In this document: piece after piece, positions 13,108 through 63,614 of the stretch | Layout: every line of letters begins with the position of its first letter | Position numbering within the stretch: position 1 is the first letter of the stretch | Assembly: GCF_026151205.1 (NCBI RefSeq) | Contig: NC_087077.1 | Location: forward strand, 3,782,001 to 3,846,000 | Source: Bolinopsis microptera | Taxonomy: Eukaryota; Ctenophora; Tentaculata; Lobata; Bolinopsidae | DNA length: 64,000 nt | Direction: 5' to 3' | Notes under the pieces: model-generated | What the model was told of the DNA's origin: nothing | What the model saw: the letters and a program-made list of their open reading frames with translations, nothing else | Databases searched by the model: none | Made by a program: the position numbers and the translations under genes

Positions 13108-13130
13108 CATTCTAATTCCCGTTAACAGTA

Positions 13131-36800: not shown

Positions 36801-39800
36801 TAGGCGTCAAAGAAAGAAGGAATGGCTCAAAGGTCCATATCTGCAGAGAATGAATCTCAAAATGACGATAATTCTGAAAGCTCCGGCATATGGAGTTCTA
36901 TTAAAAAGTAAGTTTCTTGTTATAATCCGTGTAGGATGCAGTAAGCAGTTAACAGTTTTGTGGTTTTCAAGTTGATCGATGTAAATTTATAAGTAGTTTT
37001 TAGATTATCCATGTCCTGCGTATGAACTATTTATGTTCAATTGTGATATTCTTGTCATTCTAAGACTGTATTTTGTATTTTGTATCCTATTTCTTTGACA
37101 TATTCATCTCTCTAGAGCAGGAAATAGGTATGTGTGCTCAGTGCTGTTTCTTACTGTATATCAGTGCTATTTCTTGCTACTTTTTACTTTTAGCTTCAAT
37201 ATTACTTAAGCTGGTTGATCTATGATTCATCTTACTATGATTCTGATTGTTGATTGCTTGCAGGGGCTTTCCCGAATGGACGTCTTTATTTAGCGCGTAT
37301 GTGTAAAGCACTAAATTAGCAGTGATTAGAAGAATTAGCAGTGATTAGAAGCACTGAATTAGCAGTGATTAGAAGCACTTTTAACAGAGCATTAGTATTC
37401 AGTATTTAGCACTTCTTTTAACATATTGTATCAGTAGTCAATGACTGGACAGGGTTATTGAAAATAACATTACATTGTATGTAACCATGTTGACCGTTTG
37501 TTTTAACCCTTAAATACTAAATAGTTCCTTTCTCAAAAACCCCATTTAGACACTGCTCCCCCGATTAAGTTCGAATAAACATTAAACATGTATTATGAAC
37601 ATAATAATATAAATAAGATAGCAGCGCTGTTTTAATTTTCCGGCATTAGATAGGATGACCAAAAGTGATCGTTTTAAAATTCATTCATCTTAGGAATCGA
37701 GCAAACAATCATGAAAGTTACTTTTGTTTTATTAGAATAAGGCTGTGAATATAACCAATCATTTTACTTTTTAATTTGCAGCATCGTGGGAAGTAACGCA
37801 AAAGAAGAAGGCAGTACAGTACACGAGACGATACATATCTTCTCTGTGGCTTCCGGGCATTTGTACGAGAGGATGTTAGGGTAAGTAGCCTAGTAGAGTT
37901 ATTTAGTCAAGATATACTCCGTTGCTTCTTCTTGCTTCGGAGCAATTACTTCTTAAAGATTCAATTCAATTATGACTTCGAAACTCTTCTCTCAATCAAC
38001 GCAACTGTGGTATCTAAAAGCTTTTATTATCTCAGAGTGATGATGCAGTCTGTGCTGGCTAATACAAAGCTTTTATTATCTCAGAGTGATGATGCAGTCT
38101 GTGCTGGCTAATACAAAGCTTTTATTATCTCAGAGTGATGATGCAGTCTGTACTGGCTAATACAAAGCTTTTATTATCTCAGAGTGATGATGCAGTCTGT
38201 ACTGGCTAATACAAAGCTTTTATTATCTCAGAGTGATGATGCAGTCTGTGCTGGCTAATACAAAGCTTTTATTATCTCAGAGTGATGATGCAGTTTGTGC
38301 TGGCTAATACAAAGCTTTTATTATCTCAGAGTGATGATGCAGTTTGTGCTGGCTAATACAAAGCTTTTATTATCTCAGAGTGATGATGCAGTCTGTGCTG
38401 GCTAATACAAAGCTTTTATTATCTCAGAGTGATGATGCAGTCTGTGCTGGCTAATACAAAGCTTTTATTATCTCAGAGTGATGATGCAGTCTGTACTGGC
38501 TAATACAAAGCTTTTATTATCTCAGAGTGATGATGCAGTCTGTACTGGCTAATACAAAGAACCCTGTAAAGTTCTGGTTCCTGAAGAACTTCCTGTCTCC
38601 CAAGTTCATCACTTCCGTCCCCACCATTGCTAAGGAACTGGGATGCGAGGTGAGCGTGATATCTTTAAATATTGAATATTGATGCTTATTTCGCAATAAA
38701 GTGAGTGTGTGTTTGCATGTAGCAAATATCTTGGGCTATAAAACTATCATTACTTTCACAACTTCTATCCAAATTCCAACAATCACTTGTTACTTCAGAT
38801 CGAGTTTGTCCAGTACCAGTGGCCCAGTTGGTTGAACGCTCAAACAGAGAAACAGAGAATAATTTGGGGCTACAAGATCCTTTTCCTTGATGTACTCTTC
38901 CCAATGTCTCTCAAGAAAATCATATTTGTTGGTAAGTGCAGCTTATAAGAAGGAATGTACTGCGTACATTGTACAATGTACAATGTACACTGTGTACACT
39001 GCACATTGTACACTGTACAGGCCTCAATCCTGTTCGACCATCTTTGACTGCCTAGTATTACTACTGTTAACTGTATCATTTATTTGTGTCGCGAAAGCTG
39101 AAATTTCCAAAATTTTCATTCTGCATCAAAGTTTCCTACTCGGTCAAGGAGACGGCAGGAAAGCTTCTCTCCAAAAATCTTCCAAAATCTCTTCTTATAT
39201 TCGGATGATTTTTCGTTAATCAAAGATTTCTTTGGAAATAGAACTTTCAGTTAGTTTCAGTACCTCAATCGTGTCTTGTGCCATCCTCATTCCTCACTCC
39301 TCAGTGACCTTGTTAGATGTTCATTCAATAAAAATTCAGTTAAAACAGTGAAGTTTGGGTCACGGAAAGCTGAAATTTGGAAATATCCCAAATGTATTAG
39401 AAGTAATTAAACCTTAACAAGAAACTCGTGACCCAGACGCTGATCAGATAGTAAGAGCTGACATGAAGGAACTGATAGACCTGGATTTGAAGGGGGCTCC
39501 TTACGGTTATACTCCTTTCTGTGATGACAGACCGGAAATGGACGGGTTCAGGTAATGCTACACCAATTTGAGAAACTGTATAGAATTCATTTGTGAGTAA
39601 GTAACAGCGTTGTTTTCTACTCAGAATCCTGCATTGAACAAAGCAATTGTTTCATCTATGACAGTTTTTTTTTGCCATTCTTCAATTTCCAAAAGTAGCT
39701 ACGTTATTTAAAATTAAAACTATCCAGATTCTGGAAGCAAGGGTACTGGAGGAACCACCTAATGGGTAGATCCTACCACATCAGTGCTCTGTATGTTGTG

Positions 39801-40703
39801 GACCTTCAGAAGTTCCGACTGATCAGTGCCGGTGACAGGCTGCGTGGACAGTACCAGGTTTTTAACTCATTATTCGGGTTTTTAACACGTTATTTATCTC
39901 TAATTCTGTTGGCACCTGGTATTATTTTCAGTAACTGTTCCTCTGGAAGTTATCCTCCCTTAATTCTATAATTTCAGGGACTCAGTCAAGATCCGAACAG
40001 TTTAGCGAACCTGGACCAGGACTTGCCCAACAACATGATACACCACGTCCCCATCTTCTCACTACCTCAAGAGTGGCTCTGGTGCGAGACTTGGTGCTCC
40101 GACTCCAGCAAAGCAAACGCTAAAACAATCGATCTGGTCCGTTACCTATAATATTTGGAGCTTTAGTTTTAGAACCTCTTGATATCAGAATTGTGCATGT
40201 TAATGTTTTAATTCAAATCGTTTTCCCCACAATACCGATATTTATCCGTTTAACTTAAAGCTCTACGAATTGAACCCTTTTCTTCGACAGTGCAACAATC
40301 CCCAAACGAAAGAACCAAAACTTGACCGAGCTAGGAGAATCGCTCCTGAATGGGTAGAATATGATACTAAACTTAGGAGGATTTTAGACAAAGTAGTCGT
40401 CGAAAGTGAGTACCGAGATTTAGAACCAATTTGGGGCTGTCGTGACGATAATTGTAGAAAGTTTGTGCTTCTCAAATTCCTCAAACGTTGATAACGAGAA
40501 GACTATTCAGATAACAACAGAATTTGTGAAACCTTTCTAATTATTATCTTATTAGTTCTTACAACATATAATATGTAGAATAAGAAAACTGTAGTCCGTC
40601 CGGACTATTCTATGTAATAACCCATATTCCCCTATCAGGTAGCGAAAAGTCCAAGCAAGAGAGTTCTAGTCAGTCACGCTCCAGCTCACATTCAGAATTA
40701 TAA
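21829..40703 (+). CDS. UGGT1: UDP-glucose:glycoprotein glucosyltransferase
   Basis: ER lumen folding sensor that reglucosylates misfolded N-glycoproteins. Exons: 21829-21947, 22184-22269, 22733-22851, 22956-23514, 23654-23799, 23957-24054, 24202-24344, 24611-24829, 24954-25075, 25258-25393, 25912-26064, 32706-32804, 32966-33114, 33412-33584, 33717-33865, 34002-34156, 35130-35241, 35391-35490, 35560-35729, 36173-36318, 36526-36696, 36804-36907, 37264-37296 (probable cassette), 37782-37880, 38526-38649, 38799-38931, 39437-39551, 39728-39857, 39978-40136, 40291-40405, 40639-40703. The model is 1466 aa (human about 1555). Visible marks: signal peptide, [25 protein letters not shown], thioredoxin-like repeats, [10 protein letters not shown], then a GT24 domain from about residue 1170 with [18 protein letters not shown] (DxD, about 1273), [24 protein letters not shown]. 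The C terminus HSEL is a KDEL-type retention signal. Intron 11 hosts an antisense receptor gene. Whether it is UGGT1 or UGGT2 cannot be told. The exon 7 acceptor is the least sure. Confidence 0.95.
25539..25837. mobile_element. hAT-type MITE, 299 bp
   Basis: The ends CATCGTTGTTAAATACGT and, inverted, CAATGCTGTTAAATACGT form an 18 bp terminal inverted repeat with the CAnnG start typical of hAT. A perfect 8 bp duplication CCACAAAT flanks it (25531-25538 and 25838-25845). There is no coding capacity; the interior is rich in ATACG motifs. It lies in UGGT intron 10. Confidence 0.85.
26359..30820 (-). CDS. LDLa-repeat seven-transmembrane receptor (GRL101/relaxin-receptor-like), nested in UGGT intron 11
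   Basis: Model on the - strand: 30820-30766 (signal peptide [19 protein letters not shown]), 30650-30508, 30432-28541, 28102-26359; total 1277 aa if the 511 bp element at 28042-28552 is spliced out. The extracellular part is long and cysteine-rich. It starts with an SRCR-like stretch ([12 protein letters not shown]...ICQQLGY) and has several LDLa-like modules ([48 protein letters not shown]). A class A 7TM domain begins near residue 860, with [12 protein letters not shown] after TM3 and [13 protein letters not shown] (NPxxY type) in TM7. Molluscan GRL101 and vertebrate LGR7/8 share the LDLa-7TM layout; no leucine-rich repeats are seen here. Ligand unknown. The junction between exons 2 and 3 is the least certain. 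Confidence 0.8.
28042..28552. mobile_element. 511 bp G-run-ended element inserted in a receptor exon
   Basis: A perfect 8 bp duplication GTATCAGG flanks it (28034-28041 and 28553-28560). The ends are inverted: CGGGGGGA...ACTTAGTACCGGACATCACGT on the left and ACGTGATGTCCGGCACTTGGTACC...TCCCCCC on the right. The interior is AT-rich with five CAGTTAGTAC motifs (TACTAAC on the gene strand). With the element and one duplication removed, the receptor frame runs straight through ([12 protein letters not shown]), so the insertion hit a coding exon and is recent. It has no coding capacity. The donor ATCAG|GTACCAAG (exon end 28541) and acceptor GTGTTTTTAG|A (exon start 28102) lie inside it and are phase-compatible. 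Confidence 0.88.
31155..32013. mobile_element. MITE with TA target site, 859 bp
   Basis: The inverted ends CCTTAATTCCCAAAAATTTG (31155) and CCTTAGTTCCCAAAAATTTG (mirror, ending 32013) match at 19 of 20 positions, flanked on both sides by TA. Subterminal regions repeat GCCCAAATTTT-type motifs. There is no transposase. TA target choice suggests the Tc1/mariner/pogo group. It lies in UGGT intron 11, upstream (on the - strand) of the nested receptor gene. Confidence 0.7.
34251..34946. mobile_element. G-run-ended inverted-repeat element, 696 bp
   Basis: It starts with 14 G and ends with 13 C; the inverted ends continue as CCAACCATATTAAAGTATAT. Just inside each end lies a roughly 60-base direct repeat containing ATATCCCCGGGTCAAAATCG and its AATATACTTTAATAT tail. 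A 6 bp duplication AATACA flanks it (34245-34250 and 34947-34952). No protein is coded. It lies in UGGT intron 16 beside an ATTATAC microsatellite. Confidence 0.75.
37264..37296 (+). other. Probable 33-base cassette exon of UGGT
   Basis: Bounded by TTGCTTGCAG and GTATGTG, with phase 2 on both sides. It adds 11 residues ([11 protein letters not shown]) between exon 22 and exon 24, and skipping keeps the frame. The residues resemble the linker before the human GT24 domain (GFWDSFKWGF), so inclusion may be the default. Confidence 0.55.
38021..38559 (+). repeat. 49 bp tandem array carrying the UGGT exon 25 splice acceptor, 11 copies
   Basis: Each unit has 15 intron bases (CTTTTATTATCTCAG) and the first 34 bases of exon 25 (AGTGATGATGCAGTCTGTGC...). 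Eleven units fill 539 bases exactly. Only the last unit runs into the rest of the exon (AACCCTGTAAAGTTCTGG). Entry at any earlier acceptor reads into a stop within 25 codons (unit length is 1 modulo 3). Variants are single-base changes such as CTGTGC/CTGTAC and CAGTTT/CAGTCT. Confidence 0.96.
38955..39018. repeat. Palindrome-rich TGTACA repeat in UGGT intron 26
   Basis: A run of overlapping GTACA/TGTAC motifs (GTACATTGTACAATGTACA and similar). It can pair with itself in several registers. No function is evident. Confidence 0.6.
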
Positions 40704-41546: not shown

Positions 41547-44059
41547 ATGGATAATCTGCTCCCTCGGATACATGGTATCGAGCACAGATGCAGATCACTA
41601 TGTGCTCTGGAGGGCGAACAGGAGGTCGTATCCTTTCTGGTCGGTACTCAATCTATGAAACAGGACAACATAGTGAGTCTTTATTAGTCTTTCTTAGTAG
41701 TGGTATTAATCGTATCGAGCCTTCAAATTCGGTCTTGATGTTCTTTTAAACTATATGGTTCATTTAGCTTGAACTGGACAGACAAGAGAGAGTCTACTAA
41801 TAATAGATAATATTGTGGTTGTAACCTTCAATCTTGTTGACTTGTTCAGGTGCACTTGTTTGAACTTGACGAGGAGTTTGGGGAGCTGAATGACAGATGT
41901 TACCACCACGATGCTGGCGAGGTGTGGCATGTTGCTTCCTCCCCTCACTCCAGGGACCTTATATCCACCTGTCATTCTCATGTTGAGAGCGAGGTAAGGT
42001 ACACACTAAACACTACACAGATATAAGGAAGCAGAGAGGTAAGGTACACACTAAACACTACACATATATATAGGGAAGCAGAGACAAAATCTGCAGTAAT
42101 ATAATCCTTACATTTTACAATTCTAGATAAGCTTAATATCTCCGGAATATTGTCAAGTCTTTAGTTCACAACTGTAACTGTCAGGTGAACCTAGAGAGTG
42201 GAGCTACAGTGTGGAGGCTAGGTGGGGCACCTGAGGAACCTAAACTGGAGGAGCTGGGTCATGTGTCTGCTCACAACTCTAATGTTGGTTTTTGAAACGT
42301 TGATTTTTCTTTCATTTCAAGCTGCTCACTAGGTATGAAAATTGTCGTGTGTTTGGGAATGTTGCTAAATTCCAGATACATACTTTGGCCCTCTTCGCTG
42401 CCAGACAACTTCGCCCAATTAAGACTTCCCCTAATTTCACCTCTTCTCCGTTTGAAATTGTAACACTAACCTCCCAGATGCGAGCAACAGAGTGGGGTGT
42501 AGAGGGATGTGAGGGGTCTCTCTGTTCCCTTGGAGACACCTCCCTGGTCCAGTGGAAGATAGACAGTAATGTCAGGGAACACAGTTTCTGTGAACTCCCA
42601 AAAAGGAGCTGCCCCACTTCACTTCGGTGGAATCCTCACTCCTCTGGTGAGCTGAGCGTTAAATTAAATATAGATTTGGACACTGCGAGGTGAGTCATAT
42701 TGTTCTGCGAATAACCAAGCAGCTTTTAGTATTGGCCAATGGCCAATCAAACCCCAGAATTACTGTCACGTGTTGGTACTTCACGTATTAGAACCGCCAC
42801 CTACTAGCATCTATACTAGATCTATTTATGAATCTCTTTTGGCATCAAACAATGAACAACTTGCTAGAGCCATCATAAGAAAAGTTTGCAACAAAGTTAC
42901 AATTTAAATAGATCTACGTTCTGTATTGTTGACAACTACAAGCGGTAACAAAATATCAAGTACGGCAACTAGATTTTGAATTATATACATAATAAATACA
43001 TAATAAATAATGAATTCTAAAAGGTTTGGAGAAATTGATAAAAATTGCCAATCTAAAGGAGAGGCTCTGCAATAACCTTAAGAGCCCGAAGGACAGCATA
43101 TCCCACTTTCTCCCCAGTTTAGCCTACTCACAGTTCAGGTAACCAAGGCAACCTCCAGGTAACCAAGTAGGGATAGCCTCAGACCAACACATCCGACTAC
43201 ACGACCTGCGCACTATGAAGTGCACCACAGTACTCGATAACGCCCACACCCAGACAGTACGAGACCTGGACTTTAACCCCAACAGACAGTATTACATGGC
43301 CACCTGTGGAGACGACTGTGCCACCAGGTTCTGGGACACCCGGAACTGCTCACAACCCCTTCTCTCCTTCTTCAACCACTCTCACTGGGTCTGGAAAGTC
43401 AGGTAATATAATATAGATTATTGATTCTTTAGAGTAGTGTAGATTAATTTTATTTTTTATATTTATTTATTGTGAAGGATCTACAATAATTATTGATATT
43501 GTTGAATTATAATGTGCTTAACATAATATAAATTGATGTACATATTTGTAATATCTTATTGAGGCACATGCCACCCCATCGCGGGTTTACTATTTAATTA
43601 CTACTACTACAGGTACAATCTGCGAGATCAACTGTTACTAACGGGAGGGAGTGACAGTAAGGTGGTGTTACTGAATGTGGCCTCTCTTGCTTCTACTGAT
43701 CCTGCTACGGAGGATGAGGAGGAGGAGGGGGAGAAGGAGATCGATCACAACAAGGTTAGTGACTTCCTGTGAGGTTGTGTTAAAACGCTAAATTTGATCA
43801 TTATGTTTTGCGTCGCTTCAACAAATCTGTATGAATAACAAATTAAAAACTCTGCTTTATACTTCACTTCTATTTCCACTACCCTGCCCAGGAGCAGATG
43901 AGAGAGGGTGTATTAGAAGAGTATGACAAACACGAGGACTCCGTCTACTCTGTAGCCTGGTCCACTGCTGATCCCTGGCTTTTTGCTTCTCTCTCTAATG
44001 ACGGTAGACTTGTCCTCAACAAGGTCTCCAAGGAGATCAAGTTCAGTATTATTCTCTGA
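41547..44059 (+). CDS. EIPR1: EARP and GARP complex-interacting protein 1 (TSSC1), WD-repeat
   Basis: Seven exons (41547-41672, 41850-41993, 42185-42283, 42478-42646, 43159-43402, 43613-43754, 43892-44059) give 363 aa; human EIPR1 is 387 aa. It is a WD40 beta-propeller that binds the EARP and GARP tethering complexes and promotes endosomal recycling and dense-core vesicle sorting. Marks: VSFLVGTQSMKQDNI, AGEVWHVASSP, RWNPHSSGNQVGIASDQHIR, TVRDLDFNPNRQYYMATCGD, SHWVWKVRYN, HEDSVYSVAWSTADPWLFAS, and a terminal KFSIIL. An acidic insert (TEDEEEEGEKEID) sits in the same place as the human acidic loop. Two of its splice sites are duplicated in tandem (exon 2 donor, exon 5 acceptor). Confidence 0.95.
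41991..42083 (+). repeat. 45 bp duplication carrying the EIPR1 exon 2 donor
   Basis: GAGGTAAGGTACACACTAAA begins at 41991 (true exon end GAG|GTAAGG) and again at 42036. The second copy has a strong donor too; using it would insert 45 in-frame bases, so it needs checking for real alternative use. Confidence 0.85.
43136..43168 (+). repeat. 20 bp duplication carrying the EIPR1 exon 5 acceptor
   Basis: CAGGTAACCAAG occurs at 43136 and 43156. Only the second acceptor (exon start 43159) keeps the frame; the first would add 20 bases and shift it. Confidence 0.8.
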
Positions 44060-45438: not shown

Positions 45439-48400
45439 ATGAGCGATCCGGTAGTAGAGAGATATTTTTCCACCTGCAGGTCCCTCAAGAAGAGGTTCCT
45501 GAGGAAACCAAATATCACCGAGGCTAGAGACAACTTCTACTCATTTGGTACGAGCATTTCAGATCAAATTCATCAGCGAATCTTTAGCTTTGGAGAATAA
45601 TTACTGCTAAACTAAGATAATTTCGTCGTGATAATATAATTTAAAAAACGCCATTTTTCCTCAAATTCCTATTTTGGGGTTCGTTTTTTTGGTTTTCTCT
45701 TTTCATGGGTCATTTTTGGTTTTTATGGGTTTTTTGTGTTTTTATGGGCTTTTTTGTGTTTTTCCCTCGTTTTTGTAACTTTTCATCCAATTATTTAAAA
45801 ACCCAAAAATACATAAAACGAATAAAACATATCATAATTGATAATGGGGATGAAGGACTGTAACATATAACTTGGTCTCAAATGAATGTAGGTGTAAATG
45901 GTATCAATTCTAACATTTTTTATACGTAATAAAAACCCAAAAATACTTCAAATTCCTATTTTGGGGAGTTGGACACCCCCAGTAATCCTAACTTAATCTT
46001 TAAAGATAAATCCTCGATTTTACCTCGATCCTACCTTAACCCTCCCTCCCTGTGCAGGCAAGCAGCTGATAGTATCAGGAAACAAAGAGTACGCAGTGAG
46101 CTGCTATATGTCCGCGTCACAGTGCGAGGAGCAGTTAGGGAACACTGTGGGTGAAACTAATGCTCTTACTAAAGCTGCTGCTCTCTTTCTCGAGGTTCTT
46201 ACTACAACCCCCGGCACTTTATTATCTTTCTACAATCTGTATTATTTCCCGTGCTTAATTATTGATCCCCCTCGTGAAGACACTTGACACAAGTGGTTTA
46301 ATTTGAGGTTTTTAATGCTTATAATATGAGGATAAAAGATACTCATCGTGTGTGTATCTCAAAGTTTCTTTAGGATACTGTTTGAATTTATCCAAATAAA
46401 CCGATGGAATTTATTAATTAACAAAAGGAACTTGCCCGCAGTTGGAGAAGGACAAGCAGAAGTTGTGTATCTCAAGTAACGAGCACTACCTTGCAGCAGG
46501 TATAGACTGCTACAACATGGCTGTAAACAAGCTGGTAGCTACTAATAAACACGACCTCGCTCTTAAACTCTGTGTAGAGGTTAGCCGTTAGTGTCATTAA
46601 CATTTCACTCTTAAACTCTGTGTAGAGGTTAGCCGTTAGTGTCATTAACATTTCACTCTTAAACTCTGTGTAGAGGTTAGCCGTTAGTGTCATTAACATT
46701 TCACTCTTAAACTCTGTGTAGAGGTTAGCCGTTAGTGTCATTAACATTTCACTCTTAAACTCTGTGTAGAGGTTAGCCGTTAGTGTCATTAACATTTCAC
46801 TCTTATTCTTAAACTCTGTGTAGAGGTTAGCCGTTAGTGTCATTAACATTTCACTCTTAAACTCTGTGTAGAGGTTAGCCGTTAGTGTCATTAACATTTC
46901 ACTCTTAAACTCTGTGTAGAGGTTAGCCGTTAGTGTCATTAACATTTCACTCTTAAACTCTGTGTAGAGGTTAGCCGTTAGTGTCATTAACATTTCACTC
47001 TTAAACTCTGTGTAGAGGTTAGCCGTTAGTGTCATTAACATTTCAGGGTAAAATATTGTGAGCACATCTCCTTCTGTTTCGTATCTTAGTTTGGAGTGCA
47101 AGTGTGGTTTGAACACTGGTCATCGCCCTTTGCCATTCGAAAATTAATGTTGAAAATAGTGGTGATCCCCATCATGATTTATAATGTTATTTCAGCTAGG
47201 CTGCCTGCTAGTAGACGTAGGACACATCATGATTTAGGATGTTATTTCAGCTAGGCTGCCTGCTAGTAGACGTAGGACACATCATGATTTATAATGTTAT
47301 TTCAGCTAGGCTGCCTGCTAGTAGACGTAGGACACATCATGATTTATAATGTTATTTCAGCTAGGCTGCCTGCTAGTAGGCGTAGGACACATCATGATTT
47401 ATAATGTTATTTCAGCTAGGCTGCCTGCTAGTAGACGTAGGACACATCATGATTTAGTATGTTATTTCAGTTAGGCTGCCTGCTAGTAGACGTAGGACAC
47501 ATCATGATTTATAATGTTATTTCAGCTAGGCTGCCTGCTAGTAGGCGTAGGACACATCATGATTTATAATGTTATTTCAGCTAGGCTGCCTGCTAGTAGA
47601 CGTAGGACACATCATGATTTATAATGTTATTTCAGCTAGGCTGCCTGCTAGTAGACGTAGGACACATCATGATTTATAATGTTATTTCAGCTAGGCTGCC
47701 TGCTAGTAGACGTAGGATACATCATGATTTAGTATGTTATTTCAGCTAGGCTGCCTGCTAGTAGACGTAGGACACATCATGATTTATAATGTTATTTCAG
47801 CTAGGCTGCCTGCTAGTAGACGTAGGATACATCATGATTTAGGATGTTATTTCAGCTAGGCTGCCTGCTAGTAGACGTAGGACACATCATGATTTAGAAT
47901 GTTATTTCAGCTAGGCTGCCTGCTAGTAGACGTAGGACACATCATGATTTATAATGTTATTTCAGCTAGGCTGCCTGCTAGTAGACGTAGGACACATCAT
48001 GATTTATAATGTTATTTCAGCTAGGCTGCCTGCTAGTAGACATAGGACACATCATGATTTATAATGTTATTTCAGCTAGGCTGCCTGCTAGTAGACGTAG
48101 GACACATCATGATTTATAATGTTATTTCAGCTAGGCTGCCTGCTAGTAGACGTAGGACACATCATGATTTAGGATGTTATTTCAGTTAGGCTGCCTGCTA
48201 GTAGACGTAGGATACATCATGATTTAGGATGTTATTTCAGCTAGGCTGCCTGCTAGTAGACGTAGGACACATCATGATTTAGAATGTTATTTCAGCTAGG
48301 CTGCCTGCTAGTAGACGTAGGACACAACATGATTTATAATGTTATTTCAGCTAGGCTGCCTGCTAGTAGACGTAGGACACATCATGATTTATAATGTTAT

Positions 48401-51400
48401 TTCAGTTAGGCTGCCTGCTAGTAGACGTAGGACACATCATGATTTATAATGTTATTTCAGCTAGGCTGCCTGCTAGTAGGCGTAGGACACATCATGATTT
48501 AGGATGTTATTTCAGTTAGGCTGCTTGCTAGTAGACGTAGGACACATCATGATTTAGGATGTTATTTCAGCTAGGCTGCCTGCTAGTAGACGTAGGAGAC
48601 ATCATGATTTATAATGTTATTTCAGTTAGGCTGCCTGCTAGTAGACGTAGGACACATCATGATTTATAATGTTATTTCAGTTAGGCTGCCTGCTAGTAGA
48701 CGTAGGACACATCATGATTTATAATGTTATTTCAGCTAGGCTGCCTGCTAGTAGACGTAGGACACATCATGATTTATAATGTTATTTCAGCTAGGCTGCC
48801 TGCTAGTAGATGTAGGACACATCATGATTTAGTATGTTATTTCAGTTAGGCTGCCTGCTAGTAGACGTAGGACACATCATGATTTATAATGTTATTTCAG
48901 TTAGGCTGCCTGCTAGTAGACGTAGGACACATCATGATTTAGAATGTTATTTCAGCTAGGCTGCCTGCTAGTAGACGTAGGACACATCATGATTTAGGAT
49001 GTTATTTCAGCTAGGCTGCCTGCTAGTAGACGTAGGACACATCATGATTTATAATGTTATTTCAGTTAGGCTGCCTGCTAGTAGACGTAGGACACATCAT
49101 GATTTAGAATGTTATTTCAGCTAGGCTGCCTGCTAGTAGACGTAGGACACATCATGATTTAGTATGTTATTTCAGCTAGGCTGCCTGCTAGTAGACGTAG
49201 GATACATCATGATTTAGGATGTTATTTCAGTTAGGCTGCCTGCTAGTAGACGTAGGACACATCATGATTTATAATGTTATTTCAGCTAGGCTGCCTGCTA
49301 GTAGACGTAGGACACATCATGATTTATAATGTTATTTCAGCTAGGCTGCCTGCTAGTAGACGTAGGACACATCATGATTTAGGATGTTATTTCAGCTAGG
49401 CTGCCTGCTAGTAGACGTAGGATACATCATGATTTAGGATGTTATTTCAGCTAGGCTGCCTGCTAGTAGACGTAGGATACATCATGATTTATCATGTTAT
49501 TTCAGCTAGGCTGCCTGCTAGTAGACGTATGACACATCATGATTTAGGATGTTATTTCAGCTAGGCTGCCTGCTAGTAGACGTAGGATACATCATGATTT
49601 ATAATGTTATTTCAGCTAGGCTGCCTGCTAGTAGACGTAGGATACATCATGATTTAGGATGTTATTTCAGCTAGGCTGCCTGCTAGTAGACGTAGGATAC
49701 ATCATGATTTATAATGTTATTTCAGCTAGGCTGCCTGCTAGTAGACGTAGGACACATCATGATTTAGGATGTTTTTTCAGCTAGGCTGCCTGCTAGTAGA
49801 CGTAGGATACATCATGATTTATAATGTTATTTCAGTTAGGCTGCCTGCTAGTAGACGTAGGACACATCATGATTTATAATGTTATTTCAGCTAGGCTGCC
49901 TGCTAGTAGACGTAGGACACAACATGATTTATAATGTTATTTCAGCTAGGCTGCCTGCTAGTAGACGTAGGACACATCATGATTTAGGATGTTATTTCAG
50001 CTAGGCTGCCTGCTAGTAGACGTAGGACACATCATGATTTATAATGTTATTTCAGCTAGGCTGCCTGCTAGTAGACGTAGGACACATCATGATTTAGGAT
50101 GTTTTTTCAGCTAGGCTGCCTGCTAGTAGACGTAGGACACATCATGATTTATAATGTTATTTCAGCTAGGCTGCCTGCTAGTAGACGTAGGATACATCAT
50201 GATTTAGTATGTTATTTCAGCTAGGCTGCCTGCTAGTAGACGTAGGACACATCATGATTTAGGATGTTATTTCAGCTAGGCTGCCTGCTAGTAGACGTAG
50301 GATACATCATGATTTAGGATGTTATTTCAGCTAGGCTGCCTGCTAGTAGACGTAGGACACATCATGATTTATAATGTTATTTCAGCTAGGCTGCCTGCTA
50401 GTAGACGTATGACACATCATGATTTATAATGTTATTTCAGCTAGGCTGCCTGCTAGTAGACGTAGGACACATCATGATTTAGTATGTTATTTCAGCTAGG
50501 CTGCCTGCTAGTAGACGTAGGACACATCTTGATTTAGTATGTTATTTCAGCTAGGCTGCCTGCTAGTAGACGTAGGATACATCATGATTTAGTATGTTAT
50601 TTCAGCTAGGCTGCCTGCTAGTAGATGTAGGACACATCATGATTTAGTATGTTATTTCAGCTAGGCTGCCTGCTAGTAGACGTAGGACACATCATGATTT
50701 AGTATGTTATTTCAGCTAGGCTGCCTGCTAGTAGACGTAGGACACATCATGATTTAGTATGTTATTTCAGCTAGGCTGCCTGCTAGTAGACGTAGGATAC
50801 ATCATGATTTAGTATGTTATTTCAGCTAGGCTGCCTGCTAGTAGACGTAGGACACATCATGATTTAGTATGTTATTTCAGCTAGGCTGCCTGCTAGTAGA
50901 TGTAGGATACATCATGATTTATAATGTTATTTCAGCTAGGCTGCCTGCTAGTAGACGTAGGACACATCATGATTTATAATGTTATTTCAGCTAGGCTGCC
51001 TGCTAGTAGACGTAGGACACATCATGATTTAGGATGTTATTTCAGCTAGGCTGCCTGCTAGTAGACGTAGGATACATCATGATTTAGGATGTTATTTCAG
51101 CTAGGCTGCCTGCTAGTAGACGTAGGACACATCATGATTTAGAATGTTGTTTCAGCTAGGCTGCCTGCTAGTAGACGTAGGACACATCATGATTTATAAT
51201 GTTATTTCAGTTAGGCTGCCTGCTAGTAGACGTAGGACACATCATGATTTAGGATGTTATTTCAGCTAGGCTGCCTGCTAGTAGACGTAGGACACATCAT
51301 GATTTATAATGTTATTTCAGCTAGGCTGCCTGCTAGTAGGCGTAGGACACATCATGATTTATAATGTTATTTCAGTTAGGCTGCCTGCTAGTAGACGTAG

Positions 51401-54400
51401 GACACATCATGATTTAGGATGTTATTTCAGCTAGGCTGCCTGCTAGTAGACGTAGGACACATCATGATTTATGATGTTATTTCAGCTAGGCTGCCTGCTA
51501 GTAGACGTAGGACACATCATGATTTATAATGTTATTTCAGCTAGGCTGCCTGCTAGTAGACGTAGGACACATCATGATTTATGATGTTATTTCAGCTAGG
51601 CTGCCTGCTAGTAGACGTAGGACACATCATGATTTATAATGTTATTTCAGCTAGGCTGCCTGCTAGTAGACGTAGGACACATCATGATTTAGGATGTTAT
51701 TTCAGCTAGGCTGCCTGCTAGTAGACGTAGGATACATCATGATTTAGTATGTTATTTCAGTTAGGCTGCCTGCTAGTAGACGTAGGACACATCATGATTT
51801 AGAATGTTATTTCAGCTAGGCTGCCTGCTAGTAGACGTAGGACACATCATGATTTATAATGTTATTTCAGTTAGGCTGCCTGCTAGTAGACGTAGGACAC
51901 ATCATGATTTAGTATGTTATTTCAGCTAGGCTGCCTGCTAGTAGACGTAGGATACATCATGATTTAGGATGTTATTTCAGCTAGGCTGCCTGCTAGTAGA
52001 CGTAGGACACATCATGATTTATGATGTTATTTCAGCTAGGCTGCCTGCTAGTAGACGTAGGACACATCATGATTTATAATGTTATTTCAGCTAGGCTGCC
52101 TGCTAGTAGACGTATGACACATCATGATTTAGGATGTTATTTCAGCTAGGCTGCCTGCTAGTAGACGTAGGACACATCATGATTTATAATGTTATTTCAG
52201 CTAGGCTGCCTGCTAGTAGACGTAGGACACATCATGATTTATAATGTTATTTCAGCTAGGCTGCCTGCTAGTAGACGTAGGACACATCATGATTTAGTAT
52301 GTTATTTCAGTTAGGCTGCCTGCTAGTAGACGTAGGACACATCCCAGATGCTGAACCACATTTCATCAAGGCTTCCTCTCTCATCAACCCTGGCAACATT
52401 ACTTTGCAGGTGACAATATTTGCAATTTCTTAACGCTCCTTTCATTGTTATTCAACTTTGATGCTTCTATGCTGTATTGTTGAGGGTTAACCTATTAAAA
52501 TATATTAAAATAGTCTGTTAAATTTCAGATAGTGGTATTAAAGAAGTTGTGTTATTTCAGATAGTGGTATTAAAGAAGTTGTGTTATTTCAGATAGTGGT
52601 ATTAAAGAAGTTGTGTTATTTCAGATAGTGGTATTTAAGAAGTTGTGTTATTTCAGATAGTGGTATTAAAGAAGTTGTGTTATTTCAGATAGTGGTATTA
52701 AAAAAGTTGTGTTATTTCAGATAGTGGTATTTAAGAAGTTGTGTTGTTTCAGATAGTGGTATTAAAGGTGCACACCGCGAATTTTGCAACTTTGGCTAAA
52801 ATAGTAATAGGGCGTGAAACAGAAACATTGTGCTATGTTTCGCAGCGTTGGTCTAATTACATCACCCTCAAATTAGCGATCAAAGTTTTCGCTTCCTAGA
52901 GAGATACAGCGTCTTAGGAAATCAAGGAATGTAAACAGTGTGGATTGTGGCTTGAACATTGCTAATTTTCTGAATTGTTTTGTGAACTGCTGGTTTCCGA
53001 TCTTATCGGCCAAAACAAAGGCTGTGTTTCTTCGATATTTTAATAGATGGAATTAATTTGTACACAAATTCTACGCGTTTTATGTGCAAAACTACCCTGA
53101 CTGTAAAATCATTATATATATTATCCATTGAATTACTAAATCCAGCGTATTTTCCACTAGAGGTCACTCTAACAAATAAAACAAAACTATTCCAATCAAA
53201 ATCTAGATCGGTCAAGCAAGGTTGACCTTTTTGGAATTTTTAGTCCCGTGATATTCTTAGGAATTGTTCTTTTCACGTACTGACTTTCCTTGAGCATGGT
53301 GGCTATACTGCGGGGCTCTTTTCCCTCTCAAACATAGTCCCACATTCCTTGCAAGATATCCTTTCTGTAAGAGTAGTCCTTGTTGATGACTCGGCTTTTG
53401 CTTACATATTTCTTTTGGCTCTTAGAATAGGACCAAAATTCTTTTCTGTTGCTGGTTAAGTTCTTATTGATTTCTATAGCAATAACCATAGAGCCCACTA
53501 CCATTCTGTTTAGGGAATAGGAAGTCCGTTTAGGCAAGAGCTTTAGTCTCACATTGTGATAAACTTCCAAAGCCCCTGTGTGTAGAAAGTTACAACACAA
53601 CTGGATGGAACTTATGAAGCGGGTGCTGGTGAAGTACTTGAATAAAGAGGTGAATTCTTCACTTTCTATTTTAAACCACTTTAGCCCCTTTAGCGTCCTG
53701 TGTTTTACCCTTGAAGAGTACTTCATTTTATGAAAGTAAGGATATAGCTTTTCAGAGGTCAAAACAATTTGCTTCTTTCTTTTTTCATTCCGTTCTTTCT
53801 GCAGTTGTAGTTTTAGAGGCTCGAAGGGATCGGCTGTCCAGGCGTGATGGTTACTAATGTGCAGTAAAGTCGAATGAACCCTTTCCACTAACTCTTTCGG
53901 GTCCCCTGCACGATAGGGGCAACAAACTCCGACAGCTTCGGTAGTTTTTTAGACATTTCCATGAGCTTTCTTTTCACCAGCCTCGCTTTGTGCCAAATAT
54001 CATAGTTGTGAGTAATACTGGTAAAGAAGGTCCTCATCAGATTTGCAATCCTCGTATTCTCATCGGTCACGAAGTGTCGGACTTTCAGCCCTTGGCTAAC
54101 AAGGTTGAGTAGGACTCCCTTGCACGCAAACGTTTCCAGGTCGCCTCTGTACATTCCCTTTTGGGCGACGAAAAAGTCAAGAATAGCACCTGTCTTAATA
54201 TCTAGAATTCTATAAGTGCAAAACTTCGCACACCAACCGGGCGAGTCGAAGTGCCCATCTCCTGCGATGTCAACGTGTTTCAACCCACTGCGACTCTCTA
54301 GCAAAGCTGTCCTCATAGACGTCCATTGGTCGACGATTATAGGGTATAGATTGGTCGTGTTGTTTTTATAGAAACTTGAGCATGTTATGTATGGAACAGA

Positions 54401-56433
54401 TAAACAAGTCATGAACGATTCTAAAACACTATAACTCATCCCACACAAAAAAGCTGCAGCAGAAACTACAAGGTTGCACTCATACTTTTTCTGTCTCAGG
54501 CGTGAGCTTCTCCAGACTCCTTCGTGAGGCAGAATACCATAACACCTGTAATTGACCACTATGCCAAATCCAGCACAGTTTATCCTCTTGATGACTGACC
54601 GGGCTCCGCATTCGGGACAGAATTTAAATAGGGATAGTAGTAAGGGCACGCTAATAATGGCCCAACAAGCGTTTGTTGTGAATGATTCTACGCTTCCATC
54701 AATAACTGGCTCATCATCGTCCGTGAGGTCATCCAGTTCAAGATCATCCAGCTCTATAAAGTCACCTTCTTCGGAAAATGAAGAGTTGATATCTTCATTA
54801 TGTAAACCCGTGTCAAAGTCATCATCATCATCTTCATCAGTAGGTTGGCTATCTTCACTGTCAGTTTCTGAGAAGTAAAGCTCGTCGATCTCCCAAAAAG
54901 AATCAGGTTCAATGTTAGAACAGGATTCGTTGGTTGTATCCTGATCAATATCTATGCCATCAGTTGACCCTGCCGGTTGCATTTCAACTAATCTTTCTTT
55001 AGGGGGTGGTCGTTTTGACATTGTTTGGACTAGGGGGTTGGCGAAACTACCAGTCCTTCGATCTGTATTTGGTACACTATCGACTTTCAAGCGAATCAAT
55101 GTGCGAGTTTCAGGATTGGCTCGAGCATGATATCGTTCCAAATCACCCTCTTGAAAGTCATCCAGGAAAAAGTGATCAGTACAAACTCTTGTACTAAGGC
55201 TGGGTTGCCATGATCGTGAATCTCTATTCATCCTCACAACCCATTTTTGCTTTAAAGCTTGATTTGTTGGTAGTCTGATGTATCTTAGATATTCTCTTCC
55301 ACTGTGATCACTTACTTTGTTTCGGCTACTACGATTCGAGCAAGCACCCACAGCACAAAATGATCCTCCTGGTCTCCGCTTCTACGAAGGTGGTTGTTCA
55401 GCCATTCAGCTACTTTATTTCTGTAACATCGTTCGAGTATTGAAGAATGTATTGAAGAATGTGACTAAAAATACTAAAATAACTCGTGATATTATAACTT
55501 GTAACTAGTGATAAGAGATGGCAAATTTAAATAACTAATCGTGTTAACAATAACAAACTACTAGTGCTCAGTATTACCGTTTAAAACGAATGTGTCATGA
55601 TTGCGTGTAAGAGACAAAACGTGGCATTGCAAATGTAAACAACGTAATAGTGAGAGGAGAGTAGAGAGAGAGAGTGATAGTACGCTGCATCTCTCGAGCG
55701 ACCCTAATTTTGGTGGCCAATTAGAGGGCGACACCCTAACTTGCGTGTCCCTAAATTTTGCGGAAGTTAATATATTCGCTTGACTATCAGATTGAGTTAA
55801 AAAACAAAAATGTTAAAATTTTTTCCCTATCTCGGTGTGCACCTTTAAAGAAGTTGTGTTATTTCAGATAGTGGTATTAAAGAAGTTGTGTTATTTCAGA
55901 TAGTGGTATTTAAGAAGTTGTGTTATTTCAGATAGTGGTATTAAAGAAGTTGTGTTATTTCAGATAGTGGTATCAAAAAAGTTGTGTTATTTCAGATAGT
56001 GGTATTAAAGAAGTTGTGTTATTTCAGATAGTGGTATTAAAGAAGTTGTGTTATTTCAGATAGTGGTATTAAAGAAGTTGTATTATTTCAGATAGTGGTA
56101 TTAAAGAAGTTGTGTTATTTCTGATAGTGGTATTCAAGAAGTTGTGTTATTTCAGATAGTGGTATTAAAGAAGTTGTGTTATTTCAGATAGTGGTATTAA
56201 AGAAGTTGTGTTATTTCAGATAGTGGTATTAAAGAAGTTGTGTTATTTCAGATAGTGGTATTAAAGAAGTTGTGTTATTTCAGATAGTGGTACTATTAAA
56301 GAAGTTGTGTTATTTCAGATAGTGGTATTAAAGAAGTTGTGTTATTGCAAGACTTACTGTAAGAACTACATGGGAGCATTAGAGACGCTGGATAGACTGG
56401 TATATCTGATAAACGTGTCAACTTCTATGATCG
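45439..56433 (+). CDS. F8A1: 40 kDa huntingtin-associated protein (F8A/HAP40), 3' end not found
   Basis: Five exons are supported: 45439-45547, 46058-46194, 46442-46579, 52311-52409 and 56319-56433, together 199 complete codons and an open phase-1 donor (ATCG|GTGAG). HAP40 is a TPR-like helical protein that clamps the huntingtin HEAT domains and links huntingtin to Rab5 endosomes. Marks: LKKRFLRKPNITEARDNF at the N terminus (closely like human LKKRFLRKPNVAEA), GETNALTKAAALFLE, DLALKLCVE-LGCLLVDVG, DAEPHFIKASSL and KNYMGALETLDRLVYL. Human HAP40 is 371 aa, so about 150 C-terminal residues are missing; I see no matching exon before 64000. Three of its splice sites are embedded in tandem arrays, and a Kolobok transposon sits in intron 4. 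Confidence 0.85.
45648..45975. repeat. Low-complexity relic in HAP40 intron 1
   Basis: The segment CAAATTCCTATTTTGGGG occurs at about 45661 and 45949, enclosing T-rich TTTTATGGGTTTTT repeats and ending GAGTTGGACACCCCC. It resembles the AT-rich interior of the 28 kb element (CTAACCCCAAAAAAAACCCA), so it may be a decayed relative. Confidence 0.35.
46560..47045 (+). repeat. 48 bp tandem array carrying the HAP40 exon 3 splice donor, 10 copies
   Basis: Each unit has the last 20 bases of exon 3 (CTCTTAAACTCTGTGTAGAG) and 28 intron bases starting GTTAGCCGTTAG. Nine units are 48 bp and one is 54 bp. The first donor ends the true exon; use of any later one reads GAG GTT AGC CGT TAG, a stop. A 214-codon antisense open frame over this array is only a by-product of a repeat length divisible by three. 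Confidence 0.96.
47171..52340 (+). repeat. 55 bp tandem array carrying the HAP40 exon 4 splice acceptor, 94 copies
   Basis: Each unit has about 22 intron bases ending GTTATTTCAG and the first 33 bases of exon 4 (CTAGGCTGCCTGCTAGTAGA...). The first and last units start at 47171 and 52286, 5115 bases apart, exactly 93 x 55, so there is no net insertion or deletion in 5.2 kb. Units differ at a few positions: CAGC/CAGT before TAGG, GACAC/GATAC, and ATAAT/AGGAT/AGTAT/AGAAT. Only the last unit continues into exon (CATCCCAGATGCTGAACC). Earlier acceptors lead to stops such as ATG ATT TAG. Confidence 0.97.
52766..55844 (-). mobile_element. Kolobok-type DNA transposon, 3.1 kb
   Basis: The ends are inverted (AGGTGCACACCGCGA left; mirror AGGTGCACACCGAGA right) and the target duplication is TTAA (52762-52765 and 55845-55848), as expected of Kolobok. 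It codes one THAP-type transposase on the - strand. It is inserted into a 32 bp unit of the HAP40 intron 4 array, opposite in orientation to the host gene. The clean duplication and near-complete frame suggest a fairly young insertion, though this copy is inactivated. Confidence 0.88.
53328..55405 (-). pseudogene. Kolobok transposase (THAP domain), inactivated by one stop and one frameshift
   Basis: From the ATG at 55405 (MAEQPPS) the frame meets a TAG at 55382-55384, then continues as a THAP-like zinc finger: FCAVGAC (C-x4-C), W..., RVCTDHF (C-x2-H). Next come an acidic linker (about residues 110-210), CPECGARS, and the catalytic region with HVDIAGDGHFDSPGWCAKFC and DENTRIANLM. Near 53890 a one-base shift in a G run (CAGGGGACC) moves the sense reading to the next frame, which continues LVERVHSTLLHISNHHAW. 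Total about 690 codons. The DGHFDSPG and HNYDIWHKARL motifs are typical of this transposase family in aquatic invertebrates and fish. It probably cannot make active enzyme. Confidence 0.82.
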
Positions 56434-57287: not shown

Positions 57288-58415
57288 CTAACCGTAGTTG
57301 AGCACCTGGGTGAGCAAACTAAAAAAGCAAACACTGGCTACTAAGTTGACTCTGGAAGCAGGGTTCCCAGAGTTTCCAGGTTCTACATAGTGCCGGCAGC
57401 CCGGTCGTTCAACAAAATTGTTTTGACATTTGAACTGGAAACTAGTAGCATTGTTATACTCATATTCTGGATAACATTGTACAGTGACCTGACTACCTGG
57501 TAAGATGAAGGGAGCCAGTGTGTTTGTGATAACTGCCCCGTTTCTGATCTCCATTTGTGGATCACATGGCCCAAGGTGCTCCTTTATAGTCTCAAATGTC
57601 AGGTCACGTAACTGTTCCTTGCACTCTGGACATAAGAATATTCTGTCGAAATTAGTGGTTAACATTGATATTGATATATAGTCTGGTGCGAAACCATATG
57701 GATATGGAACAACTGGAACTAGCTGAAATGTTTGTGTTGTAGAGCTTCTGGAGCAATCTTCCAGGGTAGCAGTAACTTTAGATCCAGCTGATTTGCTCGC
57801 CACACACTTCCCGGATAGTTTGTGTTTCATCCTTATTTGATTTTTTCCCTGATTCTTGTTAAGATTTGGTTGTACAATCCATTGTGAGGTATCCTCACAT
57901 GCACCCCATTTCATATTTTCCCCAGTTACTTTCAGACATTGCCTACTATTTCCTCTTATTACCAAAATATTTAGGTGTGTTTTACCACTTATCTTACCCT
58001 GAAATTCTACCACCGGGCTCTTCAACTCCAGTGCTCTTTGTATAATCCAGATACATGTTGAATTGCCAATAGTGCTAAACTGGCCACCCGACGGAGCAGC
58101 AGGGTTGTTCAACAATGCACACATCTCTGTTTTATAGTTGAACGCTAAGAAGTTACAGTGGTAGTAGTACTGGCAGTACTGGGTACACTGGTGCAGGGAG
58201 TCTGTGGGAAACTGATAGATGGGTTGCTCGTCACAGCACTCTACCTTATCTGTCTCATAGCATGAGTCCATCAAGTCTTTATCAATTTCTTCTGTTGGAG
58301 ACATTTCAATCAAGTCTGGAGGCGCTTCCAGGCTAATGTTGGATACAGCCCCCTGTGCCAGCGCCCTTAGGCTCAAACAGAGCATCGCTAATTGAACTAT
58401 TTGAGAACGCATCAT
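57288..58415 (-). CDS. Secreted or GPI-anchored protein with PAN-like, ricin-B-like and sushi-like modules
   Basis: Single-exon frame of 375 aa. The N terminus is a signal peptide (QIVQLAMLCLSLRALAQGAV). Residues about 50-125 have spaced cysteines and the pattern CTQYCQYYYHCNFLAFNYKT...C, like PAN/apple domains. Residues about 140-235 resemble a beta-trefoil ricin-B lectin fold (CLKVTGENMKWGACEDTSQW; KLSGKCVASKSAG; TQTFQLVP). Residues about 285-345 look like a sushi/CCP module (GAVITNT...ITVQCYPEYEY...FQFKCQNN). The last 20 residues are hydrophobic (LVASVCFFSLLTQVLNYG) after a small-residue site, fitting a GPI signal. The domain calls are by eye and moderate; an extracellular binding role is inferred. 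An acceptor-like TTTGGTACAG lies 2 bases before the ATG. Confidence 0.75.
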   Translation of the reverse strand: MMRSQIVQLAMLCLSLRALAQGAVSNISLEAPPDLIEMSPTEEIDKDLMDSCYETDKVECCDEQPIYQFPTDSLHQCTQYCQYYYHCNFLAFNYKTEMCALLNNPAAPSGGQFSTIGNSTCIWIIQRALELKSPVVEFQGKISGKTHLNILVIRGNSRQCLKVTGENMKWGACEDTSQWIVQPNLNKNQGKNQIRMKHKLSGKCVASKSAGSKVTATLEDCSRSSTTQTFQLVPVVPYPYGFAPDYISISMLTTNFDRIFLCPECKEQLRDLTFETIKEHLGPCDPQMEIRNGAVITNTLAPFILPGSQVTVQCYPEYEYNNATSFQFKCQNNFVERPGCRHYVEPGNSGNPASRVNLVASVCFFSLLTQVLNYG

Positions 58416-58982
58416 TGCTGTACCAAAGGGAAATCAACTATAGAAATTGTAAATTCAACTTTACTCAAAAGAAGATTGAGTACGCCTGACGCAACACCTT
58501 TTGCATTATTCAAATGAAGCTTTGTCAACCAGAACCCCTTTTATGGAAGGTCCCATTGGGGGGGGGGGTACCAATGGCATAAATGGCATAATGGAGAATT
58601 GGCCAAACAAAATTTCCATTTATGCCATGAAATTTCTATGCCATTTGATGAATTTTATGCCATTTGTCTCCATTCTATGCCATTCGAAATATTAAATTTT
58701 AAAACTTTGAACTGAGAATTTAATAACGAATAGTCTGCACCCCACTAGTACTGTCACCTTTATTTCTATTTGTTGTACTGACCCTGGTCATTAGAAACAC
58801 CCCTAAAAGTTCGTTTTTTGACAAAAAATTTAAAACTTCTGTAATTTCATTTCTGTTTTAGTTACGCATTTGATTTTTGGTATGCGTATAGAAAATCGAT
58901 ACGGCTTTAAAATGAGATGTTCGGCGACCTCCTAGCTCACTCACTAGACTCAGTAGGAGTGATTTAACTGCGAGGGACAATT

Positions 58983-61841: not shown

Positions 61842-63614
61842 TTACTGAACATCCGTCATAGAAAGCACGACAAGAATCTGCAGATCACTGAGCACTAACG
61901 CAGTTATTATAACATACAGTGTCGGTGTAAAAGCGACTACAGCAGTTCCAGCTACACCCCCAACCAGACCTATAGCATTAGCTACACTGGAGGCCAGAGC
62001 AAAGTTATCCGTTCCAAAGTACTCCTTATCGATGAAAATGTAATAAGTAGCCATGTTGCTAATCCCGTACAGGAACTTGACAATGAAGTTAGTCACAGTC
62101 ACTGCCACAATACTTTCCTGTTTTAACATCGCTGCGAATGTCCCGATATTAAGCATGGCTACAATAACCTGAGATTTACGGTAACGAACTCTGTCCTTGA
62201 GGAAGCTTGCAAACAACTTGCCAGGAAGTGCCGCGAATGTGACAAGAGCCAGAATGAGCAGCTCCGCACCTTGAGTAGCAGTCTGGTTGCAGCCACTGTC
62301 CAGTTCCGTGTTCCGTGTTTTGATTAGTTGGATCAGTGTTGGAACGAGCAGGATGGTGAGCCACCCTTGGAACATGCTCAAAGCACGGCATAGTCCCAGT
62401 TTAGTGATTCTAGCGATCATGTTGGGAACAGCCACTGTGCAACTGTGCACTGCACCATCCTCTTCCACTTGAATGTTGGGACCTGCAGTCCCTGAAAAAC
62501 AGAAGTGTAGCATGAAAATGGGTGGAATGATTGTTGGTAGAGATGTGAGAAGTATGAATACCCTCCATCCTACCACATCCAACAGCAGATATCCCAAAAC
62601 TGCTGGCCAGACACCCCCAACTGTGTACATGATCTTGGAAATGGTGACTATACTGCCAAGTATTTCATTACTTGAAACCAGCTCCACGATCATGACACTG
62701 TGAATCCACAAGTTGAGTCCAACACAGAAGCCGATAAGGGCTCTAGAAAGGAGAAGGGTTTCGTAGTTAGCTACTATAGCACAGATCACTGTGCTCAGTC
62801 CGCTCATATAAAGGGAGAACAAGGTCAACTCTCGTCTACCAAACCTGGATCAATATGCAACTTTCAATGATTAGATAGGTTTAGAATATTTTGTTAACTT
62901 AAAAATCATGATTCGTTATTTTAACTTATTGGGGAATGGAAAAGGACAGCGAATTAATCTCGTACCTGTCAGCTAACAGACCCGCGATAACAGTAGCTAT
63001 TGCTAAGGTGAAGTACTGAATACACTCCAGCATACCCTCCCGTACCAGGGACAGCTCAATATCGCAGGACACTTGCTGTGTTATCACTCCTGAAGGTTTT
63101 GTCGAATGAAGTCGAGTTATTGGTATGGTGACTGAATGAATTTTAAGGTTTTGTTAAGAGGGAAATCATCAGATTTACTTTATTTTAACCATTATCTGAC
63201 ATATCGTATCTTTCGCCAATATCCATCGATGGCGAAAATGGCGAAAAGTTGTTTGCACAGTTTGGATATTTTCGTTATTTTGTCCCAAGGAATTGTTCAT
63301 TATGCCGTGACAAAGTTAACCCGTGGGCAAATTAAAGCCGTGAAAATGGCACGTGATATGGCACTTAACTAACCAGGTAAATACATTTCCACTCCGTCCA
63401 CAATATTCATAAGTACACCAAATACCAGCAGGAGCTTGTCCATTCTCGTCCAGTCCTTTTGTTGGTTGAGCAAATGTGTCTTCTCCACGTGGGCGTTATC
63501 TTTCTCCGCGTGGGCGCTATTTCCATTCACGTCGGCGTTATCTCCAGTCACGTGGGAGCTATCTCTAGTCACGTGGGCGTTATCTCCAGTGGGCTGGTTG
63601 TTAGATTCTTTCAT
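61842..63614 (-). CDS. Major facilitator superfamily transporter (SVOP/SLC22-like)
   Basis: Three exons on the - strand: 63614-63374, 63089-62966, 62844-61842; total 455 aa. A 12-helix layout fits the hydrophobic pattern. The MFS motif A after TM2 is visible across the exon 2-3 junction (GLLADRFGRR), and a second-half equivalent is FLKDRVRYRKS. TM4-TM5 read LLLSRALIGFCVGLNLWIHS. The N-terminal cytosolic tail has five 7-residue repeats of the type GDNAHVT. The substrate cannot be predicted; SV2/SVOP and organic ion transporters are the nearest look-alikes. The start codon lies 3 bases after an acceptor-like TTCTGCTTCAG. Coding begins with a soluble tail ending DWTRMDKLLLVFGVLMN, the usual entry into TM1. 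Confidence 0.85.

Follow-up and report, generated by a model that had tools for sequence, protein, structure and literature searches.

Minisatellites spanning splice donors and acceptors in HAP40 and other genes of the ctenophore Bolinopsis microptera

In human IFI6 (6-16, G1P3), a minisatellite places several splice donors at the end of an exon, and downstream repeat units are used as donors, which yields three mRNA species (PMC4526556, citing Turri et al. 1995). In the potato RdRp gene, one tandem duplication across an intron-exon boundary gave a new intron (PMC4974935). Here we describe splice-site-spanning repeats in the ctenophore Bolinopsis microptera. The analysed stretch, called the window below, comprises 64,000 nucleotides of contig NC_087077.1 (assembly GCF_026151205.1, positions 3,782,001 to 3,846,000, forward strand). 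It contains a gene for HAP40 (F8A1), whose intron 3 carries ten tandem copies of its donor facing 94 tandem copies of its acceptor. As in IFI6, a minisatellite supplies multiple donors at an exon end, and the repeat unit contains the splice site, which is the mark of a splice-site-spanning minisatellite of the IFI6 type. Unlike in IFI6, the HAP40 units measure 48 and 55 bp, both intron ends are affected, acceptors number up to 94 and the inner copies break the frame. The tandem duplication across an intron-exon boundary is shared with potato RdRp, but instead of a new intron arising, an existing one has apparently been inflated by multi-copy arrays. Competition between identical sites has a parallel in human minigenes with two donors 52 nt apart (PMC9225289); those were engineered and analysed alongside annotation, with two sites each, whereas the ctenophore arrays are natural and reach tens of sites. 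Among the matches listed for the open-licence literature, no title reported such an acceptor array or such arrays in ctenophores. Splice-donor minisatellites are already known; acceptor arrays this large, and their spread, look new within the literature searched.

Exons were called from open frames, from proteins joined across exons and from matches to domains or PDB structures (Table 1). The protein joined from exons 1 to 5 matched human HAP40 (6ez8_B) in a PDB search with an E value of 1.7e-19 over residues 6-155 of 189, while exons 3 to 5 as a query of their own gave no useful match in that search. Tandem Repeats Finder (TRF) returned 10.0 copies for the 48-bp array and 94.1 copies for the 55-bp array. 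A script located ten identical donors, GAG/GTTAGC (the slash marks the junction), at 46580, 46628, 46676, 46724, 46772, 46826, 46874, 46922, 46970 and 47018, that is, with eight steps of 48 bp and one of 54 bp. It also located 94 acceptors, TTTCAG/YTAGGCTGC, for which all 93 steps are exactly 55 bp. TRF and the script therefore agree with the original prediction, which had placed ten donors and 94 acceptors opposite each other in one 5.7-kb intron. The arrays run without a break into the coding exons, taking in 20 bp of exon 3 and, in the last acceptor copy, 33 bp of exon 4 (29 bp in units generally). The intron is 5731 nt long, and 178 nt long with the extra copies removed.

All possible joins of the ten donors with the 94 acceptors were translated. 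A single one of the 940 was open, namely that of donor 1 with acceptor 94. When donor 1 was joined to the other 93 acceptors, each product met a stop 8 to 37 codons beyond the junction, and donor 2 ran into TAG three codons beyond the first junction. These translations bear out the predicted pattern, in which only the first donor and the last acceptor give an open frame, later donors read into TAG and earlier acceptors hit early stops.

Within the acceptor array, TTTCAG is intact in 94 of 94 units, of which 26 are distinct. The variation lies mostly at four positions (-14, -13, 0 and +27 from the junction), and the variants do not cluster: neighbouring units differ on average by 2.10 and distant units by 2.11. 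Such a pattern could arise if units often exchanged sequence, or it could have been introduced when the consensus was polished. Position 0 is T in acceptor 94 and likewise in 15 decoys, so sequence local to the unit cannot mark the true site. The true acceptor is set apart by the exon beyond the unit and by the distance to the next donor. The published B. microptera assembly was built with wtdbg on PacBio reads, which its text suggests were continuous long reads (CLR), followed by Illumina polishing (PMC10232365). This leaves uncertain exactly how many copies there are and how the unit variants are ordered, and 94 is the value in the assembly.

The original prediction had regarded the intron as a singular case. 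This view did not hold: a donor minisatellite had been published for human IFI6, and the same arrangement recurs in both upstream neighbours of HAP40, UGGT and EIPR1, and on contig C1. In total we found 13 splice-site-spanning arrays across contigs C6, C1 and C2, both arrays of HAP40 intron 3 included. Eight are supported by domain or structure matches (two in HAP40, one each in UGGT, EIPR1 and an SLC23-like gene, and three in sushi exons) and five by reading frame alone. The window itself was chosen by the HAP40 finding, and the C1 loci L027-L037 were picked for carrying such motifs; the flanks on C6 and five pieces from C1-C5 were not so picked. In the 264-kb stretch, the arrays judged were those among the matches listed.

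Eight arrays (the HAP40 donor and acceptor arrays, UGGT, EIPR1, SLC23, L028, the L030 acceptor array and L031) were tested by script in the correct frame. In all eight, the outermost site was open and the next inner copy led to a stop. The sites tested were the four outermost acceptors for UGGT, L030 and L031, all three for L028, and all ten HAP40 donors. In UGGT only the last acceptor was open among the last four, and in EIPR1 donor 2 reads into TAA. The same pattern was seen by eye in two more arrays, the L030 sushi donor array and L037. Since the frames were taken from the open reading frame itself, the open outermost copy is partly given, and what the test shows is that the inner copies lead to stops. 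In terms of coding capacity, the site nearest its partner across the exon, which exon definition would select, gives a productive mRNA in eight of eight. The name EIPR1 comes from Pfam; when the EIPR1 piece was searched against the PDB, the 60 matches listed were all general WD40 proteins. UGGT also has a 20-bp duplication starting from an exon's last base (39857-39894), a possible new two-copy donor array.

A number of other arrays were rejected as splice-site-spanning. By eye, no exon was found at L027, at L035 or at the TTTCAG array of L029; L033 is an in-frame coding repeat; the array of L032 starts just after a donor; and two further arrays, with 39-bp (L029) and 23-bp (L031) units, lie beside a splice site, not across it. 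The arrays at 63486 and at +117308 (from the window start) appear to be coding. At +81104, +86423, +88075, +105670, +118692 and +160399, inspection by eye revealed no convincing exon. An array in L034 (554-1693) has a 30-bp unit, TTTCAG-AGAGATAACAG-GTAATTATTGGGA, with acceptor and donor motifs around 11 bp, and was not counted as spanning.

Which copy is used can be considered in the light of human proximity rules. Above an intron length of about 250 nt, human splicing prefers the sites that lie closest to each other across the exon, and in minigenes with 365-nt introns and a pair of identical donors spaced 52 nt apart the upstream donor was used exclusively; in short introns the preference goes to the innermost pair (PMC9225289). 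HAP40 intron 3 is now long, at 5731 nt, so the across-exon rule gives the productive mRNA, and exon definition, one of the options raised in the original prediction, would be a reasonable account for it. The introns of EIPR1 (191 nt) and L028 (231 nt with its outermost acceptor, 176 or 121 nt with the others) fall below 250 nt. For these two, either ctenophores prefer the outermost site in short introns as well, or the truncated exon copies lack some feature of the true exon, or many transcripts are lost. We tentatively raise the possibility, which we would not bet on, that the spliceosome of this ctenophore takes the outermost of identical sites at any intron length, with introns below 250 nt recognised across exons too. 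If true, the proximity rule established for human splicing would not hold here, and the genome could for that reason fill its introns with splice-site-spanning satellites.

To place these arrays against chance, we used the 16 introns of UGGT, EIPR1 and HAP40 whose two ends are both known; they hold 11 arrays with a period of at least 15, the two halves of the HAP40 intron 4 array counted as one. Five of the 11 arrays span a splice site (one is a marginal case of 1.9 copies that includes a single base of exon), compared with 2.71 expected from random placement of the unit in the ancestral introns. Spanning arrays are thus not depleted. Without the two intron 3 arrays that prompted the finding, the comparison is 3 of 9 against about 1.8. 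The EIPR1 expectation was computed with 47 bp, the actual spacing being 45 bp, and three intron anchors (the first UGGT intron, the first EIPR1 intron and the last HAP40 acceptor) are off by one or two bases. By chance alone, units of 47-55 bp in introns of 144-178 nt would span a splice site with a probability of 0.42 to 0.48; short introns make spanning likely, and no targeting is needed. Across the assembly (264,652,675 bases in 232 contigs), triples of TTTCAG 20-50 bp apart gave 3821+3110 = 6931 hits, which are hits and not arrays, against 653+825 = 1478 for the reversed word. Likewise, AGGTAA triples gave 11505+12373 = 23878 hits against 744+524 = 1268. The GC content is 38.69% in the 264 kb. 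Among 43 array units of period 20-130 in 314 kb, an acceptor-like motif occurred in 12 (0 of 43 when reversed) and a donor-like motif in four (2 of 43 when reversed), and all four of the latter belong to the 13 spanning arrays. Of the AGGTAA arrays among the matches listed, three were inspected (L030, L036 and L037), and all three begin where an open reading frame ends.

With moderate confidence, we favour neutral tandem duplication in short introns, the copies persisting as the outermost sites rebuild the normal mRNA. HAP40 intron 3 would have started as an ordinary intron of about 178 nt, in which two short segments, one across the exon 3 donor and one across the exon 4 acceptor, were duplicated in tandem into minisatellites. 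With every duplication, the complete exon is kept only at the array's outer edge, and the mRNA is therefore correct as long as the first donor pairs with the last acceptor. The spliceosome would recognise sites mainly across the exon, where the outermost site would be both nearest its partner and backed by the full exon sequence, and nonsense-mediated decay would clear the unproductive transcripts spliced to inner copies. The arrays would be mostly neutral growths, permitted by the outermost preference, and the genome probably holds more of them, the 13 having been found in a small part of it.

Several points weigh against neutral duplication with outermost choice. The arrays, their frames and their recurrence in other genes are direct observations; the case for the outermost site is coding capacity read from the DNA, from which splice choice is predicted. 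The preference in human annotation is statistical, in long introns too: the upstream donor prevailed in just 60% of near-equal competitions over all classes, and in minigenes with weak donors larger exons were skipped (PMC9225289). The ancestral intron of about 178 nt, EIPR1 and L028 have lengths for which the human rule would pick an inner, frame-breaking site. The word counts have an imperfect control, as TTTCAG is 2.5 times commoner than its reverse in the 314-kb sample (451 against 177 single words, partly via the HAP40 arrays; AGGTAA, 193 against 214), and the AGGTAA hits are inflated by 8-bp satellites such as CCAGGTAA. Only two of the 12 acceptor-like units, those of HAP40 and UGGT, could be placed across an acceptor, and two others are the halves of the HAP40 intron 4 array. 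Finally, only two of the nine C1 loci fetched for TTTCAG from the matches listed (L028 and L030) have a TTTCAG array across an acceptor.

Within the repeat unit, nothing distinguishes the inner sites from the true ones; joins to them meet early stops, and in short introns the human rule would favour them (PMC9225289). It could therefore be that inner copies are often used and most HAP40 transcripts, carrying early stops, are degraded, so that the array reduces or adjusts expression, perhaps under selection. We consider this unlikely, because the same layout in several unrelated genes points to a general mutational cause and not to gene-specific regulation. A process at transcribed splice junctions, involving for example RNA-DNA hybrids or repair, might instead preferentially start duplications there; the excess of spanning arrays over expectation and the acceptor-like units found in the forward sense only are consistent with this. 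However, the excess, a raw difference in counts, is small and draws partly on the two arrays from which the finding started, and six of the eight arrays inspected by reading frame showed no convincing exon, which makes such targeting improbable. That the assembler produced the array or its length is more doubtful still. The use of wtdbg with short-read polishing in the matching assembly (PMC10232365) would allow it, and the equal similarity of neighbouring and distant units could come from a scrambled consensus; against this stand the 26 distinct units, the 13 similar arrays, most of them in other genes, the transposon that interrupts the intron 4 array, and exon frames that are intact only at the outer edges. 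Neutral duplication in short introns is thus the explanation that we retain.

Other repeats and elements lie in the same window. In HAP40 intron 4, a 32-bp array stops short of the exon 5 acceptor and was therefore not counted as spanning. The transposon (ends GGTGCACACCG / CGGTGTGCACC, with 11-bp inverted ends) sits inside this array, so the array probably predates the insertion. In intron 5, a minus-strand open reading frame of 381 aa (57288-58433) may be a nested gene; its matches are weak and beta-trefoil lectin-like (E 0.014, below the cut-off). A 21-bp repeat at 63486-63590, in a minus-strand open reading frame, is likely a coding repeat and adjoins a match to an MFS transporter (MFS_1, E 1.5e-12, 61842-62846). 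A complex nested array on a GACCCACTAT core, including CATTTCAG, occupies 14539-16062, and a 38-bp array of 17 copies (12440-13109) lies downstream of a PNO1-like gene (KH_PNO1_2nd, E 4.7e-46).

Table 1. HAP40 exons and arrays, splice-site-spanning arrays in other genes, and the elements of HAP40 intron 4. Positions are those of the window unless a contig is named; slashes mark junctions.
Feature	Position	Strand	Description
HAP40 exon 1, coding part	45439..45547	+	From the model's first ATG (putative start) to the donor; within protein matching 6ez8_B
HAP40 exon 2	46058..46194	+	Within protein matching 6ez8_B
HAP40 exon 3	46442..46579	+	3' end GAG/GTTAGC
HAP40 donor array	46560..47045	+	TRF; 10 copies; 48-bp unit = 20 bp exon 3 end + 28 bp intron
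Stretch separating the intron 3 arrays	47046..47169	+	124 bp
HAP40 acceptor array	47170..52343	+	TRF; 94 copies; 55-bp unit = intron end + 29 bp exon 4 start
HAP40 exon 4	52311..52409	+	Frame-compatible acceptor 52310/52311; donor 52410
HAP40 intron 4 array, left part	52522..52767	+	32-bp unit with ATTTCAG (acceptor-like)
Transposon inside intron 4 array	52768..55844	-	THAP domain, E 8.4e-10; Mutator-like transposase, E 7e-9, in frame 53888-55381
HAP40 intron 4 array, right part	55845..56346	+	15.6 copies; stops just upstream of exon 5 acceptor
HAP40 exon 5	56352..56433	+	
UGGT intron acceptor array	38017..38559	+	11 copies; 49-bp unit across TCTCAG/AGTGATG; Glyco_transf_24, Pfam E 5.7e-144
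EIPR1 intron donor pair	41991..42084	+	Two identical GAG/GTAAGG 45 nt apart; 191-nt intron; Beta-prop_EIPR1, Pfam E 1.1e-33
SLC23-like permease donor array	near C6:3744345		8 copies; Pfam E 1.2e-5, 24.6 bits, below curated cut-off of 27; in the 200 kb around the window
Second C6 donor array	119,682 bp from window start		About 3 copies; reading frame only
L028 acceptor array	C1		3 copies, 55 bp; reading frame only
L030 acceptor array	C1		7 copies; LRR-CT by eye, without Pfam match; counted as reading frame only
L030 donor array, sushi exon	C1		14 copies; Pfam E 3.6e-8
L031 acceptor array, inside split sushi domain	C1		7 copies; E 3.5e-7 on joined exons
L037 donor array, sushi exon	C1:428574-430925 (word hits)		54-bp unit; E 0.0019, under cut-off
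L036 donor array	C1		47-bp unit; reading frame only
L023 likely donor array	C2		Reading frame only

In the B. microptera genome, nature provides at least 13 cases in which 2 to 94 near-identical sites compete at spacings that are known, some in long introns and some in short ones. With full-length RNA, the across-exon and across-intron rules can be tested on them in an early-branching animal, where the earlier study used engineered two-site minigenes (PMC9225289). The short introns of EIPR1 and L028 are the more informative cases, the human rule predicting the wrong site there. The arrays also show that, in this ctenophore, conserved genes can gather near copies of their genuine splice sites, a point of relevance both to how introns grow and to the prediction of splice sites.

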